A stretch of 64,000 nucleotides of DNA from Ancylobacter radicis (lineage in GTDB: Bacteria; Pseudomonadota; Alphaproteobacteria; Rhizobiales; Xanthobacteraceae): the NCBI RefSeq assembly GCF_018449475.1, contig NZ_JAHCQH010000015.1:558001-622000 (forward strand), written 5' to 3'. A program made the position numbers and the translations under genes. Below are positions 46,291 through 51,862 of the stretch, in pieces. Position 1 is the first letter of the stretch, and the number at the start of each line of letters is the position of its first letter. The notes beneath the pieces were generated by a model. The model saw nothing but the letters and a program-made list of their open reading frames with translations, was not told the origin of the DNA and searched no databases.

Positions 46291-47013
46291 TCACTCCCGC
46301 TCGCCGGTCAGGTTGAGCAGAAGCTGGAAGATGTTCACGAAGTTCAGATAGAGCGACAGGGCGCCAAACACAGCCAGCTTCTGCTGCGATTCAGCATCGA
46401 AATTGTCCGCGTACTGTTCCTTGATGCTCTGCGTATCCCAGGCCGTCAGGCCGACGAACACAAGAATACCGACCACGGACACGATGAATTGCAGCATCGA
46501 CGAGCCGAGGAAGATGTTCACGACGCTCGCAATGACCACGCCGATCAGACCCATGATCAGGAACGAGCCGAACTTCGACAGGTCACGCTTGGTGGTATAG
46601 CCATAAAGACTGGTCGCACCGAACATGGTTGCGGCGATGAAGAAGGTGCGCGCGATCGACGTGCCGGTGAACACCAGGAAGATCGAGGCCATCGACAGGC
46701 CCATCACCGCGCAGAACGCCCAGAACATCATCTGCGCCGTACCGGCCGACATGGCCTGGATGCGGAACGAGAAGAACAGAACGAAGGCCAGCGGCGCCAG
46801 CATCACCACCCATTTCAGCGGGGTGGAAAAGATCGGCACATAAAGCGCCGGCGTGGTGCCGACGATGAAGGCGACGGCACCGGTGATGACGAGGCCGAGC
46901 GCCATGTAGTTGTAAACGCGCAGCATATGCTTGCGCAGGCCCTCGTCGAAAACGGCCTGGTCGACGCCACGGGCGCCGGTCTGCCACTGATAGCCGAAGT
47001 TCGGCGTGTTCAT
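46291..47013 (-). CDS. Bax inhibitor-1 / YccA family membrane protein
   Basis: A 240-aa protein with seven hydrophobic helices and the BI-1 phrase LTAWDTQSIKEQY plus the final LYLNFVNIFQLLLNL. BI-1 proteins are proposed Ca2+-leak channels or protease modulators (YccA binds FtsH). ATG 47013 is favoured because GGAG lies six bases before it; the ATG at 47019 sits too close to that site. It follows the anti-sigma gene by 35 nt. Confidence 0.9.
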   Translation of the reverse strand: MNTPNFGYQWQTGARGVDQAVFDEGLRKHMLRVYNYMALGLVITGAVAFIVGTTPALYVPIFSTPLKWVVMLAPLAFVLFFSFRIQAMSAGTAQMMFWAFCAVMGLSMASIFLVFTGTSIARTFFIAATMFGATSLYGYTTKRDLSKFGSFLIMGLIGVVIASVVNIFLGSSMLQFIVSVVGILVFVGLTAWDTQSIKEQYADNFDAESQQKLAVFGALSLYLNFVNIFQLLLNLTGERE

Positions 47014-47048
47014 TTCCATCTCCTGTTGAGGAAATCGACCCTTGCGGA

Positions 47049-47837
47049 TCAGTAGAGCGAGCGCGCCAGAGAGGCGGCCGCCCGATCGAGTTCGCGGGTC
47101 TGTCCCTGGGCGACCAGGGCGTAGGCGACCTCACCGACCTGCCAATAGGCGGCGCTGAGGTCCTCCCGCGGAACGGTGGTGGCCGGCACCACATCAAAGC
47201 TGCCCGGCCGGACGGCGAACAGCGAGACGGCGCCGAAATCCTTTGTTTTAACAGATACTTCCACACTCGGCCCGAAGGCCGAGGGGAAGACCTGCACATC
47301 CGCCACCTGCCACTCCTGCGGCAGGTTCGGCATGATGATGGCGGTGGCCGAGCGGATCTCGGCCGGGTCATAGGCGGTCGCGCCCGGTTGCGAGCTCATG
47401 CCGGCGCGCAGGGCGCTGGTGCGATGGGCCCGCACCGCCTCTTCCAGATAGGCCGGCGGAAGATCGGAGGCCACGACCCGGCTGACGCCGAGCGGTCCGA
47501 ACTGAGCATGGGCCAGCCAGCCCGCACCGACCAGCAGCGCCACGGACGCGGCGATCCGCACAAGGCGCAGCCAGCTCTGGCGCGACAAAGCGTTCTCCAG
47601 CCGGCGGGCCGCCTCGGTGGTGGCCAGACGCGCCCCCGCGCCAACCGCCAAGCGCGGCGTATCGGCCAGCGCCAGACGCAACTCGTCGCGAATCCGCAAA
47701 TCCGCCATCACCCGCGAGGCCTCGATCGGGTTGGCGCTGAGATAGGCCTCGACATCGATCCGGCGGGCCACCGCCAGCTCGTCATCGACATAGGCCTGAA
47801 GGTCCGTATCGGAGACCGGATCAAGGGGACGGCTCAT
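47049..47837 (-). CDS. membrane anti-sigma factor
   Basis: A 262-aa protein. Residues 1-60 resemble an anti-sigma domain (DTDLQAYVDDELAVARR), a single hydrophobic helix follows near residue 95-115 (LVRIAASVALLVGAGWLAHA), and a periplasmic domain of about 140 residues ends in RELDRAAASLARSLY. It overlaps the sigma factor gene by 17 nt, the usual arrangement, with GGAGGAG upstream of ATG 47837. No zinc-binding HxxxCxxC is evident, so a non-ZAS type. Confidence 0.83.
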   Translation of the reverse strand: MSRPLDPVSDTDLQAYVDDELAVARRIDVEAYLSANPIEASRVMADLRIRDELRLALADTPRLAVGAGARLATTEAARRLENALSRQSWLRLVRIAASVALLVGAGWLAHAQFGPLGVSRVVASDLPPAYLEEAVRAHRTSALRAGMSSQPGATAYDPAEIRSATAIIMPNLPQEWQVADVQVFPSAFGPSVEVSVKTKDFGAVSLFAVRPGSFDVVPATTVPREDLSAAYWQVGEVAYALVAQGQTRELDRAAASLARSLY

Positions 47838-48378
47838 CCGCTCCTCCAACAAGACGCAAATGGGTGGGGCGCACGGCCGTCCCGTCCTCGATCGCCCGCA
47901 ACGCGGCGCGGGCGCGGGAGAGACGGGACATCAACGTGCCCTGGGGAATACCAAGCGCAGCCGCGGCCTCGGCGTAACCGAGGCCTTCAATGGCCACGAG
48001 ATGCAGCGCGGCGCGCTGCTCCTGCGGCAAGTGCATGAAGGCCTCGCGCACCTGAGCGAGACGCACATGATGCTCCTGCCCCGGCTCACCTGCCGGCTCG
48101 GCCAGCTCCATCGCCCGGCGCTCACGCACGCCCTCGGCGCTGCGGGCCCGGCGGCGGTCGATGAAGGCGTTGTGCAGGATCGACAGCAGCCAGCCGCGCA
48201 GCCCCTTGCCGGGCGCACCACGCTCCGGGGAGAAGGTGCCACGCCGCTCATAGGCCCGCACCAGCGCGTCATGGACCAGGTCCTCCGCATCGGCGTCGTC
48301 GCGGGTCAGCGAGCGCGCATAGCGCCGCATCACCCCGAGCTGGGCCGGTACGTCGAACGTGGTTTCGTCGCGCTTCAT
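47821..48378 (-). CDS. ECF family RNA polymerase sigma factor
   Basis: A 185-aa ECF sigma factor: region 2 VMRRYARSLTRDDADAEDLVHDALVRAYER and LRGWLLSILHNAFIDRRRA, region 4 HLPQEQRAALHLVAIEGLGYAEAAAALGIPQGTLMSRLSRARAAL. It is paired with a membrane anti-sigma factor, not a NepR-type partner, so it is not the general stress EcfG itself. A GGAAT-N17-CGTA element ends nine bases before ATG 48378, suggesting autoregulation and a nearly leaderless mRNA. Confidence 0.9.
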   Translation of the reverse strand: MKRDETTFDVPAQLGVMRRYARSLTRDDADAEDLVHDALVRAYERRGTFSPERGAPGKGLRGWLLSILHNAFIDRRRARSAEGVRERRAMELAEPAGEPGQEHHVRLAQVREAFMHLPQEQRAALHLVAIEGLGYAEAAAALGIPQGTLMSRLSRARAALRAIEDGTAVRPTHLRLVGGADEPSP

Positions 48379-48448: not shown

Positions 48449-48473
48449 GGAACGCGGCCGCCTCTGCGCCGTT
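48449..48473 (+). promoter_or_regulatory. EcfG-type promoter of the ROK-like gene
   Basis: GGAAC at 48449-48453, 16-base spacer, CGTT at 48470-48473, exact match to the general stress sigma consensus. It lies 30 nt before ATG 48503, so the leader would be about 20-25 nt, with AGGA as ribosome site. Confidence 0.75.
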
Positions 48474-48502: not shown

Positions 48503-49630
48503 ATGGCCGAGAAAAACCGCGACAACGCCGCCCGCAGCGCCTCCGACGCTCCGCCCGCCGTCGCCCACGGATCGCCGACCCTGACCGCGGTCACGGTCGA
48601 CGCCAGCAACAGCCAGATGCGCGAGGAAGACGGCTTTGTCGGCGACCGCGCCCGACGCGCGGCATTCTTCCAAAGCCTTGATCGCTGGCGGGAAATTGCC
48701 GGCGACGCGGCACCGCTGGGCGAGACGGCGACCGCCGACATCTCCAAGCGGCAGATCGACGACGTGCTGATGGAGGGCGATCCGGTCGAACAGGCGGTGA
48801 TCCTGAGCGCGGTTGAGGAATATGCGGGCGAGCTTGCCACCGTTGTGCGCCGGTTGCTGCGCACCAAGGAGTGGCGCGGCACCGAGCGCATCGCTATTGG
48901 TGGCGGGCTGAAGGCCGGGCGTTTCGCGGAGATCGCCATTGCCCGCGCCGAGTTGATTGCCCGTTCTCACGACACGGAAATCGAGCTGCGGCCCATTCGC
49001 CATCACCCGGACGAGGCGGGGCTCATTGGAGCGGTTCATCTGGCGCCGAGCTGGATGTTTGCCAATTTCGGCGAGATTCTCGCGGTGGATATTGGCGGCA
49101 CCAATATTCGCGCCGGTATCGTGCGCTTGAACCTTGATAAGGCAGAGGATTTGTCGAAAGCGAAGGTGCGTACCAGCCAGATCTGGCGCCATGGGGACGA
49201 GGATCCCAAGCGGGACATGGCGATCGAGCGGCTTGCCAAGATGCTGAAAGATCTGGTGGGCGAAGCTGAAGAAGAAAAGTTGTCGCTTGCGCCCTTCATC
49301 GGCGTGGGCTGCCCCGGCGTTATCCAGCCGGACGGCTCGATTGCCGCCGGCGCGCAGAACCTGCCAGGCAATTGGGAGAGCTCGCGCTTCAATCTGCCAG
49401 CCGCTCTCTGGCAGGCGATACCGGAGATCGGCGGGCGCGAGACCACGGTGGTGGTCCATAATGATGCTGTTGTTCAAGGGCTTAGCGAGGTGCCGCTGAT
49501 GCAGGATGTGACGCATTGGGGCGTGCTGACGATCGGCACCGGGCTCGGCAATGCCCGTTTCACCACTCGCGCCCGGCCGAACGACGAACGGAAAGCCGTG
49601 CGCCGGAAGAACGGGGCTGGCGGCGATTAA
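48503..49630 (+). CDS. ROK-like protein with apparently permuted domain order
   Basis: A 375-aa protein. The segment from about 95 to 182 (EYAGELATVVRRLL ... RIAIGGGLKAGRFAE ... DEAGLIGAVHLA) resembles the C-terminal lobe of ROK sugar kinases/repressors, yet it precedes the N-terminal lobe: ATP motif DIGGTNIRAG (196-205), GVGCPGVIQPDG, catalytic Asp in VVHNDAV and GTGLGN near the end. The CxCGxxGCxE zinc motif and its flanks are missing. Codon third positions are less GC-rich after about 48880 than in neighbouring genes. Expression is likely from the EcfG-type promoter just upstream. Kinase activity and substrate are unknown. Confidence 0.75.
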   Translation: MAEKNRDNAARSASDAPPAVAHGSPTLTAVTVDASNSQMREEDGFVGDRARRAAFFQSLDRWREIAGDAAPLGETATADISKRQIDDVLMEGDPVEQAVILSAVEEYAGELATVVRRLLRTKEWRGTERIAIGGGLKAGRFAEIAIARAELIARSHDTEIELRPIRHHPDEAGLIGAVHLAPSWMFANFGEILAVDIGGTNIRAGIVRLNLDKAEDLSKAKVRTSQIWRHGDEDPKRDMAIERLAKMLKDLVGEAEEEKLSLAPFIGVGCPGVIQPDGSIAAGAQNLPGNWESSRFNLPAALWQAIPEIGGRETTVVVHNDAVVQGLSEVPLMQDVTHWGVLTIGTGLGNARFTTRARPNDERKAVRRKNGAGGD

Positions 49631-49645
49631 TTGAATTCCGGAGCG

Positions 49646-50065
49646 TCAGACATGGCCCTCGCTGCGCTCTCCAGCCTCCCGCTCCTGCCGCGCAAGATCT
49701 TCATATTCCTCGCGAATCCGTTCCAGGGCGGTATCGTCAAGCTCCTCAAGATCGAGGAGGATCCGGCGGGCCTTGTCGTTGCGGGCGATGAGTTCGTCGA
49801 TCTTGATGTGCAGGGCGGCGGTGTCGCGGTTCTGGCTGTTCTGAATGACGAACACCATCAGGAAAGTGATGATGGTCGTCGATGTATTGATCACCAGCTG
49901 CCAAGTATCGCCGAAGCCGAAGATCGGGCCGCTGGCGCCCCAGATGGCGATCAGACCCAGCGCGCCGGCGAAGATGACGGGCTTGCCCGTCTGCAATGAA
50001 ACCCATTGCGCGAAACGGGTGAAGAGCGAGCGGCGCGGGGCGCCGGAGCGGGGCGTACGCGACAT
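49646..50065 (-). CDS. low-affinity iron permease family protein
   Basis: A 139-aa membrane protein with two hydrophobic helices (VIFAGALGLIAIWGASGPIFGF and LVINTSTTIITFLMVFVIQNSQNRDTAA) followed by a charged coiled-coil-like C-terminus (KIDELIARNDKARRILLDLEELDDTALERI). This matches the low-affinity iron permease (FET4-like) family, whose bacterial members have no proven transport role. GAGGAAGG lies upstream of ATG 50065. It is convergent with the ROK-like gene. Confidence 0.85.
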   Translation of the reverse strand: MSRTPRSGAPRRSLFTRFAQWVSLQTGKPVIFAGALGLIAIWGASGPIFGFGDTWQLVINTSTTIITFLMVFVIQNSQNRDTAALHIKIDELIARNDKARRILLDLEELDDTALERIREEYEDLARQEREAGERSEGHV

Positions 50066-50091
50066 GGCCTTCCTCAGCTTTTGCCGCTGAC

Positions 50092-50116
50092 AACGTCCTT
50101 CCGCCCCGGTCGTTCC
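50092..50116 (-). promoter_or_regulatory. EcfG-type promoter of the iron permease-like gene
   Basis: Minus-strand GGAAC (50116-50112), 16-base spacer, CGTT (50095-50092), exact consensus, in the 74-nt gap between the SDR stop and the permease-like start. Confidence 0.75.
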
Positions 50117-50139
50117 TGCCGCCTTGCCCCCATCCCGAT

Positions 50140-51000
50140 TCAGATCATCGGCGCGCCGCCGGTGACGGCGATGGTGGCCCCGGAGACATAGCTCGACAGC
50201 GGATCGGCCAGCATCACATAGGCGGTGGCGAGTTCCGCTGGCTGGCCCGGCCGCTTCATCGGCACCTGCTCGCCGAAATGCGTCACCTTTTCCGGCGGCA
50301 TGGTGGAGGGAATGAGCGGCGTCCAGATCGGGCCGGGCGCCACGGCGTTGACGCGGATATTGCGCGGCGCCAGCATCTGGGCGAGGCCGGCGGTGAAGTT
50401 CTGGATCGCGCCCTTGGTGGTGGCATAGGCCAGCAGGTTCGGGCTCGGCTTGTCGGAATTGATCGAGGCGGTGTTGATGATGCTCCCGCCCTCGCCCATG
50501 TGCGGCACCGCCGCCTTGCAGATATAGAACATGGCGTGGATGTTGACGCGGAAGGTCAGATCCCACTCCTCGTCGGAAATATCCTCGATCTTCTCGAAAC
50601 TTGCCTGATGCGCGGCATTGTTGACGAGAATGTCGACCCCGCCCAGTTCGCGCCGGGCAGCCTCGACGAGGTCGCGGCACTGCTGCGCGTGCTGGATGTC
50701 GCCGGGCATGAGCACGGCGCGCTGCCCGGCCTCCTCGACCAGGCGCTGCGTCTCGGCGGCATCATCGCCTTCATTGAGATAGGAGATCAGCAGGTCCGCC
50801 CCCTCGCGGGCATAGGCCAGAGCCACGGCCCGGCCGATGCCGCTGTCGCCGCCGGTGATGAGCGCGCGCTTGCCCTTGAGCCGCCCCGAGCCCTTGTAGC
50901 TCGCCTCGCCATGATCCGGGCGAGGCTGCATTCCGGCGGTCATGCCGGGCATGGGCTGGGGCTGTTCGGCGAAAGGCGGCGTGGGGTAATTCAAGCTCAT
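50140..51000 (-). CDS. SDR family oxidoreductase (YghA/YhdF-type)
   Basis: A 286-aa SDR with the Pro-rich N-terminal arm typical of this subgroup (YPTPPFAEQPQPMPG), cofactor loop TGGDSGIGRA, NNAA, Ser in NTASINS and the catalytic YATTKGA, then NAVAPGPIWTPLI. Relatives are NADP-dependent aldehyde or glucose reductases induced by stress. AGGAG lies just upstream of ATG 51000. It follows the DUF3008 gene by 71 nt on the same strand; short palindromes (CCTGATTTTCAGG-like) occupy the gap. Confidence 0.9.
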   Translation of the reverse strand: MSLNYPTPPFAEQPQPMPGMTAGMQPRPDHGEASYKGSGRLKGKRALITGGDSGIGRAVALAYAREGADLLISYLNEGDDAAETQRLVEEAGQRAVLMPGDIQHAQQCRDLVEAARRELGGVDILVNNAAHQASFEKIEDISDEEWDLTFRVNIHAMFYICKAAVPHMGEGGSIINTASINSDKPSPNLLAYATTKGAIQNFTAGLAQMLAPRNIRVNAVAPGPIWTPLIPSTMPPEKVTHFGEQVPMKRPGQPAELATAYVMLADPLSSYVSGATIAVTGGAPMI

Positions 51001-51071
51001 GGCGCACTCCTGCGTCGGGGCATGCTGATGACAATTCAGGATTTTCTTGAAAATCAGGGCTCTCCTGAAAA

Positions 51072-51266
51072 TCAGGATCTGCGATCGTCGACATGGGCGG
51101 GCTTGCCCTTGCGAGGGGTCGCGGCGAGATCTTCGAGCTGGTCCTCGGTCATCGACTTTTCCATCGATTTCGAGGCGCCCTTAAGGTCGCTTTTGCGGCC
51201 CTCGCCACGCTTGGCGGCGAGGGCTGCCCCCGCCGCCATCTGCTGCGCCTTCGATTTTGCCGGCAT
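51072..51266 (-). CDS. DUF3008 small basic protein
   Basis: A 64-aa DUF3008 protein: MPAKSKAQQMAAGAALAAKRGE, then KGASKSMEKSMTEDQLEDLAATPRKGKP. Small, basic and hydrophilic; function unknown but commonly found with stress genes. GGGAGA six bases before ATG 51266 fixes the start; the longer frame to 51350 has no support. Confidence 0.85.
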   Translation of the reverse strand: MPAKSKAQQMAAGAALAAKRGEGRKSDLKGASKSMEKSMTEDQLEDLAATPRKGKPAHVDDRRS

Positions 51267-51308
51267 GGGAAGTCTCCCGTGAGCGTTCTGCAAACCGGAT
51301 GACGGCCT

Positions 51309-51332
51309 GGCGGGAGAGTATTGCCTCCCGCC
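51309..51332. terminator. hairpin between the ferritin-like and DUF3008 genes
   Basis: Perfect 8-bp stem GGCGGGAG / CTCCCGCC with an eight-base loop, 24 nt after the DUF892 stop. No T tract, so it may only attenuate transcription into DUF3008 and the SDR. Confidence 0.45.
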
Positions 51333-51355
51333 ATAGGCCTTACGGTTCATTGACT

Positions 51356-51862
51356 TTACTCAGCGGCGCGCAGATTGATCTTCGCCTCGGCGAGCTTGCT
51401 GAGCTTCACATCGGTGTTTTTCTCTTCCGCGAGGTTCTTTTCCAGCACGCTCGCGCAGTCCGGCCGGCCGAGCTGCTTCGCCCAGGCGACAAGTGTTCCG
51501 TAGCGCGTGATCTCGTAATGCTCGACAGCCTGCGCCGCCGCGATAAGAGCCGCATCAAGAACCTGCTTGTCGGCGACTTCGCCCGCGATTTCCTCGGCCT
51601 CGTCAATGATTCCATCGATCGCCGGGCAGGTTACGGACTTCGCTTCTACGCCGTGCAGGCGGAATACTTCTTCCAGACGGACGACGTGATTCTTGGTTTC
51701 GGTGAGGTGATGCGTGAAATCTGCCTTGAGCTGGGGATCGGTTGCCTTCTCGATCATCGTCGGCAGCGACTTGGCAATCTTGTTCTCGGCGTAATAGATG
51801 TCACGCAGCGTGTGGACGAAAAGGTCGTCCATCGTCTTGATATCTTTTGAAAACAGACCCAT
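51356..51862 (-). CDS. ferritin-like DUF892 (YciE/YciF) family protein, second copy
   Basis: A 168-aa DUF892 protein: MGLFSKDIKTMDDLFVHTLRDIYYAENKI, ETKNHVVRLEEVFRLHGVE, QAVEHYEITRYGTLVAWAKQLG, ending with a full C-terminal helix (EEKNTDVKLSKLAEAKINLRAAE) that the first copy lacks. The glutamate/histidine arrangement fits a ferritin-like di-iron site. AGGAGGAAA lies upstream of ATG 51862; the frame is open far beyond, without a stop, into a proline-rich stretch. An EcfG-like promoter is about 85 nt upstream. Confidence 0.9.
   Translation of the reverse strand: MGLFSKDIKTMDDLFVHTLRDIYYAENKIAKSLPTMIEKATDPQLKADFTHHLTETKNHVVRLEEVFRLHGVEAKSVTCPAIDGIIDEAEEIAGEVADKQVLDAALIAAAQAVEHYEITRYGTLVAWAKQLGRPDCASVLEKNLAEEKNTDVKLSKLAEAKINLRAAE

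Follow-up and report, generated by a model that had tools for sequence, protein, structure and literature searches.

The gene at positions 48503..49630 (forward strand) of a 64,000-nucleotide stretch of Ancylobacter radicis DNA (contig NZ_JAHCQH010000015.1, positions 558,001 to 622,000; hereafter the window) very probably encodes a naturally circularly permuted ROK-type kinase of the hexokinase fold, for which we infer activity and substrate. It encodes 375 amino acids followed by a stop codon, and full-length homologues exist. In its product, the second part of the ROK C-terminal lobe (C-lobe) has moved to the front of the chain, ahead of the N-terminal lobe (N-lobe). A preliminary description of this sequence had proposed a circular permutation, which is borne out by profile alignment, by structure predictions for the full chain and for its N-terminal part (N-part) alone, and by homologues of like order. 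The predicted structures support an arrangement in which the old termini are tied by a short linker and the new termini lie inside the C-lobe, not between the lobes. C-to-N lobe shuffling, which the same description had offered as an alternative, does not fit because the cut lies within the C-lobe.

The chain opens with an N-terminal tail (residues 1-27, 48503..48583, +), of which the first 20 residues are predicted with low confidence and which carries a near-invariant HG at residues 22-23. The moved part of the C-lobe follows as residues 28-182 (48584..49048, +), as delimited by hhalign and by comparison of the N-part model with PDB entries. Its elements come in the order beta-3', helices, beta-4' with the GGG adenosine motif (residues 133-135, 48899..48907, +), a helix, beta-5' and the final helix. 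In the model secondary structure, residues 183-189 (49049..49069, +) form the linker from the old C-terminus to the old N-terminus. Residues 190-356 (49070..49570, +) comprise the ROK N-lobe together with beta-1' and beta-2' of the C-lobe. They hold the DIGGTN phosphate-1 motif (residues 196-201, 49088..49105, +), the HND motif (residues 319-321, 49457..49465, +), whose D321 aligns with the ROK catalytic base, and the GTGLGN phosphate-2 hairpin (residues 345-350, 49535..49552, +), shortly after which the chain ends. The motif positions in the preliminary description were all right: RIAIGGGLKAGRF occupies residues 129-141 and DEAGLIGAVHLA residues 170-181, DIGGTNIRAG, GCPG and HNDA lie at 196-205, 269-272 and 319-322, and GTGLGN stands 25 residues ahead of the C-terminal end.

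Ordinary profile searches detect only half of this protein. Pfam ROK (PF00480) covers residues 193-350, which correspond to positions 2-136 of its 294, and the gathering score is passed (35.1 bits against a cut-off of 22.9) through the N-lobe portion alone. NCBIfam returned partial matches far under their cut-offs, the best being the polyphosphate glucokinase model NF045942 with 27.2 bits against 250. Sequence searches of the PDB with the single protein and with a 15-row profile gave weak N-lobe matches and nothing convincing for the N-part; therefore, profile-profile alignment was adopted. A family alignment of 60 rows was split into an N-part (residues 18-188) and a C-part (residues 189-360), and each was compared by hhalign with an alignment of 30 canonical ROK proteins from the loci of a phylum-wide search (305 positions). 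The C-part aligned to positions 3-141 with a score of 58.7 (E 2.5e-8). Residues 76-183 of the N-part aligned to positions 198-298 with a score of 47.2 (E 2e-6), against no more than 19.9 for any of 30 column shuffles and 14.2 for the reversed profile; the E-values stem from single comparisons and are to be weighed together with the shuffles. When both parts were re-joined in the canonical order, 282 columns aligned with a score of 82.0. These scores agree with the earlier claim that a C-terminal ROK segment precedes the N-terminal one; its start, placed at residue 95 or 129 in that description, is corrected to about residue 28.

Prediction of the structure points the same way. The AlphaFold model of the whole protein is confident, with a predicted local distance difference test (pLDDT) of 91.4 and a predicted template modelling score (pTM) of 0.89, and by this predicted model the protein has the two-lobe hexokinase-type fold of the ROK family. 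When predicted alone, the N-part retrieves ROK C-lobes in structure comparison. The top 15 rows of its structure list are all ROK or hexokinase-fold sugar kinases and regulators with tiling coordinates, and the two pieces abut within 2 residues in 10 of the 11 comparable PDB entries. The absence of a family from these match lists does not exclude that family. It is highly improbable that residues 28-182 are an unrelated domain, with a chance GGG and AGLIGA, in front of a truncated ROK N-lobe: a Pfam scan of residues 1-190 by themselves gives no match at E up to 10 and the Foldseek E-values of the N-part exceed 0.05, as such a domain would have it, but the profile match at E 2e-6 lies far over the shuffles and the leading structure matches are uniform in fold. 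The Foldseek list for the full model is headed by tandem hexokinases with a root-mean-square deviation near 30, which gives no usable superposition and is informative on order. The new termini are predicted to sit in the turn between beta-2' and beta-3' of the C-lobe, in an otherwise ROK-like fold. A domain-swapped dimer, in which a C-lobe is completed by the N-part of a partner chain, would look identical in sequence order, and ROK proteins are often dimeric. However, the confident monomer model (pTM 0.89) and a linker of about 7-10 residues, which suits joined termini, make this arrangement improbable.

The permuted order is a property of the family. The preliminary description had called for homologues sharing the order, and GGG stands ahead of DxGG[TS]N in 126 of 128 family ORFs (open reading frames; the other two could not be scored), as against none of the 27 scorable canonical ROKs (3 of 30 were unscorable). 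The chain also ends 7-48 residues past GTG[LIM]G[NS] in 126 of the 128; the two exceptions are L124, which appears truncated, and L126, which has GTGLGK. These ORFs are not independent genomes, as the window locus occurs three times (L002, L003 and L113), one entry is a fragment (L129) and some genomes are duplicated. A canonical-order query against 376 genomes of the class found strong matches only at permuted loci, and all 16 of these were split, with the second piece upstream of the first. In one of them (G242), the first piece continued beyond the junction and across a stop; we take this as an alignment overrun. The remaining matches were a fragment on contig 38 of G340 and otherwise hits at E 8e-4 or weaker. 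No unpermuted close relative was found in these 376 genomes with up to five candidates scored in each, a depth at which a distant one could escape, and no tandem ROK-ROK intermediate was found, though no search was aimed at such chains.

In a tree of the N-lobe (30 of 60 permuted, 15 of 30 canonical and all 15 polyphosphate glucokinase (PPGK)-like rows), the permuted, canonical and PPGK-like sets each fell on one side of a branch, with support of 90, 92 and 82 in the Shimodaira-Hasegawa-like approximate likelihood ratio test; the method was quick, the branches are very long and there is no outgroup. This unrooted, long-branched tree is consistent with one origin of the permuted proteins. It can be hypothesized, with about an even chance of being right, that the family goes back to one ancient permutation, which took place inside the second RNase-H-like lobe of a ROK kinase and gave rise to a new and widespread clade of sugar kinases under stress regulation in the Hyphomicrobiales. 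In these proteins, both ends of the chain would lie at the ATP-side hairpin, and the sugar site would have been rebuilt without zinc and GExGH.

The catalytic residues of ROK kinases are retained. D196, G198, G199, N201, R203, C270-P-G, H319-N-D321, G345-T-G, G349-N350 and G133-G-G are invariant in all 60 rows, at least two of which (L028 and L042) are identical in the N-lobe region of the tree. The phosphate-1 DxGG[TS], catalytic ND, phosphate-2 GTG and adenosine GGG motifs of the ROK family are therefore all present in 60 of 60 rows, apart from variation at residue 200, which is T in 43 rows and S in 17. From ROK kinases, we take these residues to form the phosphate sites, the catalytic base (D321) and the adenosine site. 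The zinc-binding section is missing, as had been noticed before: CxCGxxGC occurs in 0 of 60 rows, against CxCGxx[GA]C in 30 of 30 canonical ROKs. The GExGH sugar-binding motif is likewise found in 0 of 60 family rows against 30 of 30 canonical ones. With both motifs gone, new contacts to the sugar must have been built. Conservation in the N-terminal stretch is high at H22 (59 of 60 rows), G23 (58), D33 (57), N36 (60), G44 and F45 (59 each) and G47 and D48 (60 each), and our guess is that these residues are candidates for the rebuilt site.

The simplest reading is an active ATP-dependent kinase, because the phosphate, catalytic-base and adenosine residues are invariant. Its residues and predicted fold suggest that the protein functions as ROK kinases do: the two halves would rebuild the usual cleft, with ATP lying between DIGGTN, GTGLG and the segment that carries GGG, and phosphorylation of a sugar would use D321 as the base. 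The permuted fold could instead be real and catalytically altered, serving as a nucleotide-binding sensor or regulator. This deserves serious, if clearly lesser, weight, since GExGH and the zinc motif are missing from every row, repressors exist among ROK-fold proteins (the PDB matches of the model include Mlc and Lmo0178), and the C-terminal tails are lysine-rich and variable in many rows. On the other side, D196, G198, G199, N201, R203, N320, D321, GTG and GGG do not vary, and a Pfam scan of the protein found no DNA-binding domain.

A comparison with known kinases shows where the protein of the window departs from them. It shares phosphate-1, ND, phosphate-2, GGG and the predicted fold of both halves with ROK kinases (PF00480; NanK, ROK glucokinase and the GNE kinase domain), but differs in its permuted segment order, in its lack of the zinc motif and GExGH, and in a chain that ends soon after beta-2'. 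In the ROK order, the N-lobe comes first and GGG with the final helix comes last, an order that this family does not follow. For these reasons, classification as a permuted ROK-like family suits it better than the label of an ordinary ROK protein. Zinc-less polyphosphate glucokinase or glucomannokinase ROKs (NF045942, PDB 1woq) are the best NCBIfam and single-sequence PDB matches of the N-lobe, have NDA/NDAL-type and GTGxG motifs in common with it and also lack the zinc loop. In contrast to the window protein, they are unpermuted and 226-259 amino acids long as cut out, and their cut-off of 250 bits is not approached by it. The N-lobe part scored 79.8 against 15 PPGK-like proteins of Pseudomonadota in a profile-profile comparison, and the canonical-order profile scored 80.7, hardly any gain. 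A specific likeness of the N-part to these proteins was considered and rejected, as its score of 20.0 compared with shuffles up to 23.9. Descent from the PPGK-like branch is thus without support, because the N-part bears no particular likeness to those ROKs. The permuted chain also aligns over the junction of the two halves of a tandem hexokinase (human hexokinase I/II; 2nzt), as an origin by duplication and trimming would give, although tandem hexokinases hold two complete kinases per chain and the window protein does not.

Two kinds of ROK-like proteins without a zinc motif deserve mention. The genome of the window encodes a second, unpermuted ROK (contig C7:513769-514371, -; L166) of the polyphosphate-glucokinase type, which scores 109.1 bits against NF045942, below the cut-off of 250. 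A group of loci (L178-L187) encodes very short ROK-like proteins (226-231 amino acids as cut out) with NDALMQA or NDAMMQA and GLGTGLG.

Expression of the gene may be tied to stress. The promoter named in the preliminary description is present: a sequence of the type recognized by EcfG, the general stress response sigma factor, reads GGAAC-N16-CGTT at 48449..48473 (+), 54 nucleotides before the ATG, and equals the R. etli EcfG1 consensus given by Jans et al. (2013, PMC3892343). A longer frame opens at GTG 48359. ATG 48503 is favoured as the start because the promoter lies between the two starts and because relatives carry a Met close by; for the relatives, the Met closest to the expected position was picked. 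The strict pattern GGAAC-N15-18-CGTT, scanned in 300 nucleotides upstream plus the first 30 of the ORF, occurs at 40 of 125 family loci, some genomes being held twice, against 29 of 6250 mononucleotide shuffles. A looser pattern in a shorter region matched 42 of 125 loci against 140 of 6250 by chance; the strict count was retained because the looser pattern drew more chance matches. Within the genus of the window, with one locus per genome, 23 of 28 loci (L003-L030) have the strict site, and it is absent from the Bradyrhizobium loci of the 125-locus list. An EcfG-type site also precedes the S. meliloti pSymB copy and, by eye, the R. leguminosarum and Bradyrhizobium plasmid copies (L161 and L162). 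A stress link is thus supported by promoter sequences, conserved in part of the family only.

Gene neighbourhoods bear on the substrate. Three Hyphomicrobium loci among the best 80 (L067, L078 and L105) have a GH15 enzyme, a GT20 enzyme of the trehalose-6-phosphate synthase type and a PfkB kinase upstream, the last assigned by Pfam in L078 and by clustering in L067 and L105. A trehalose phosphatase is present in two of the three and was not found in L105, and an iron permease lies in these clusters, though it was not found in L067. In R. leguminosarum (L161), a trehalose phosphatase gene is divergent to the permuted kinase gene. The Hyphomicrobium and L161 neighbours fit a stress kinase that recycles the glucose of trehalose. 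Under this proposal, the enzyme would act on glucose or a close relative and serve the EcfG stress response, for example by returning trehalose-derived glucose to glucose-6-phosphate. Most of the other loci examined showed no trehalose-type neighbours, which weighs against it; for this reason, glucose or a close relative as substrate of an enzyme serving the EcfG general stress response is a tentative reading, slightly less probable than not. If it is true, a sugar-phosphorylating step would be added to the EcfG response of rhizobia and relatives.

Many bacteria associated with soil and plants carry the family. Of 61 genomes, made up of the window's own and 60 relatives, 35 have a match at E up to 0.001. 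These are its own, 28 of the 29 others of the genus (G021 with no more than a 48-residue fragment) and 6 of the 31 more distant genomes, among which the match of G049 is weak. A near-full-length single match is found in 32 of the 61, and in a 33rd (G001) the match is broken into two pieces that share one frame. An assembly artefact, pseudogene or frameshift that merely looks permuted therefore has a negligible chance: fragments in G021 and on contig 38 of G340 and the seemingly truncated L124 are what it has to offer, against these near-full-length copies, named genomes of several genera and the like order of 126 of 128 ORFs. The two fragments (G021 C8:375328-375471; G340 C38:1983-2216, L129) are C-terminal and are perhaps decayed copies. 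At least 437 database stretches encode a relative; the best 80 were kept, and the genera in their titles include Ancylobacter, Bradyrhizobium, Hyphomicrobium, Bosea, Rhodoplanes and Agaricicola. Unexpected hosts in the listed records are Frankia, a Labilithrix metagenome-assembled genome and Paracraurococcus, which may reflect contamination or transfer. A class-wide sample had the family in 16 of 385 genomes. In PLSDB, 206 plasmid records match, 190 of them from Rhizobium or Sinorhizobium.

Annotation hides the permutation. Among 60 listed PLSDB records, 32 are labelled 'ROK family protein', 1 'glucokinase' and 2 'hypothetical protein', 24 are unannotated under the match, and one weak partial match is called 'response regulator'. 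The protein is annotated as an ordinary ROK protein because half of the profile matches, which is an annotation trap. To our knowledge, natural circular permutations within the catalytic domain of the hexokinase/actin superfamily seem rare. Since the permutation is fixed across several genera, the family is a natural experiment on what chain order means for folding and for domain closure in an enzyme whose action depends on closing a cleft. A search of open-licence papers for circular permutation in ROK, hexokinase or ASKHA (acetate and sugar kinases/Hsc70/actin) proteins found no description, and earlier notice elsewhere is possible; the available parts of PMC11387232, PMC3892343, PMC1079889 and PMC2876114 do not describe this protein.

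The neighbours of the gene in the window encode an extracytoplasmic function (ECF) sigma factor, a low-affinity iron permease, a short-chain dehydrogenase and a DUF892 protein. The sigma factor gene (47821-48378, -) is divergent from the kinase gene, and its product matches Pfam Sigma70_r2, r4 and PhyR_sigma2, the last of which has four matches in this genome. The next ORF (47049-47834, -) has no Pfam match and possibly encodes an anti-sigma factor. On the other side, 49646-51859 (-) holds the low-affinity iron permease (PF04120), short-chain dehydrogenase and DUF892 genes. Relatives of the iron permease and DUF892 genes adjoin the kinase gene in several Ancylobacter loci, as seen by clustering and by a Pfam run on L034 and L038. 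Beyond the ORF at 47049-47834, a Bax1-I family membrane protein is encoded at 46291-47019 (-).
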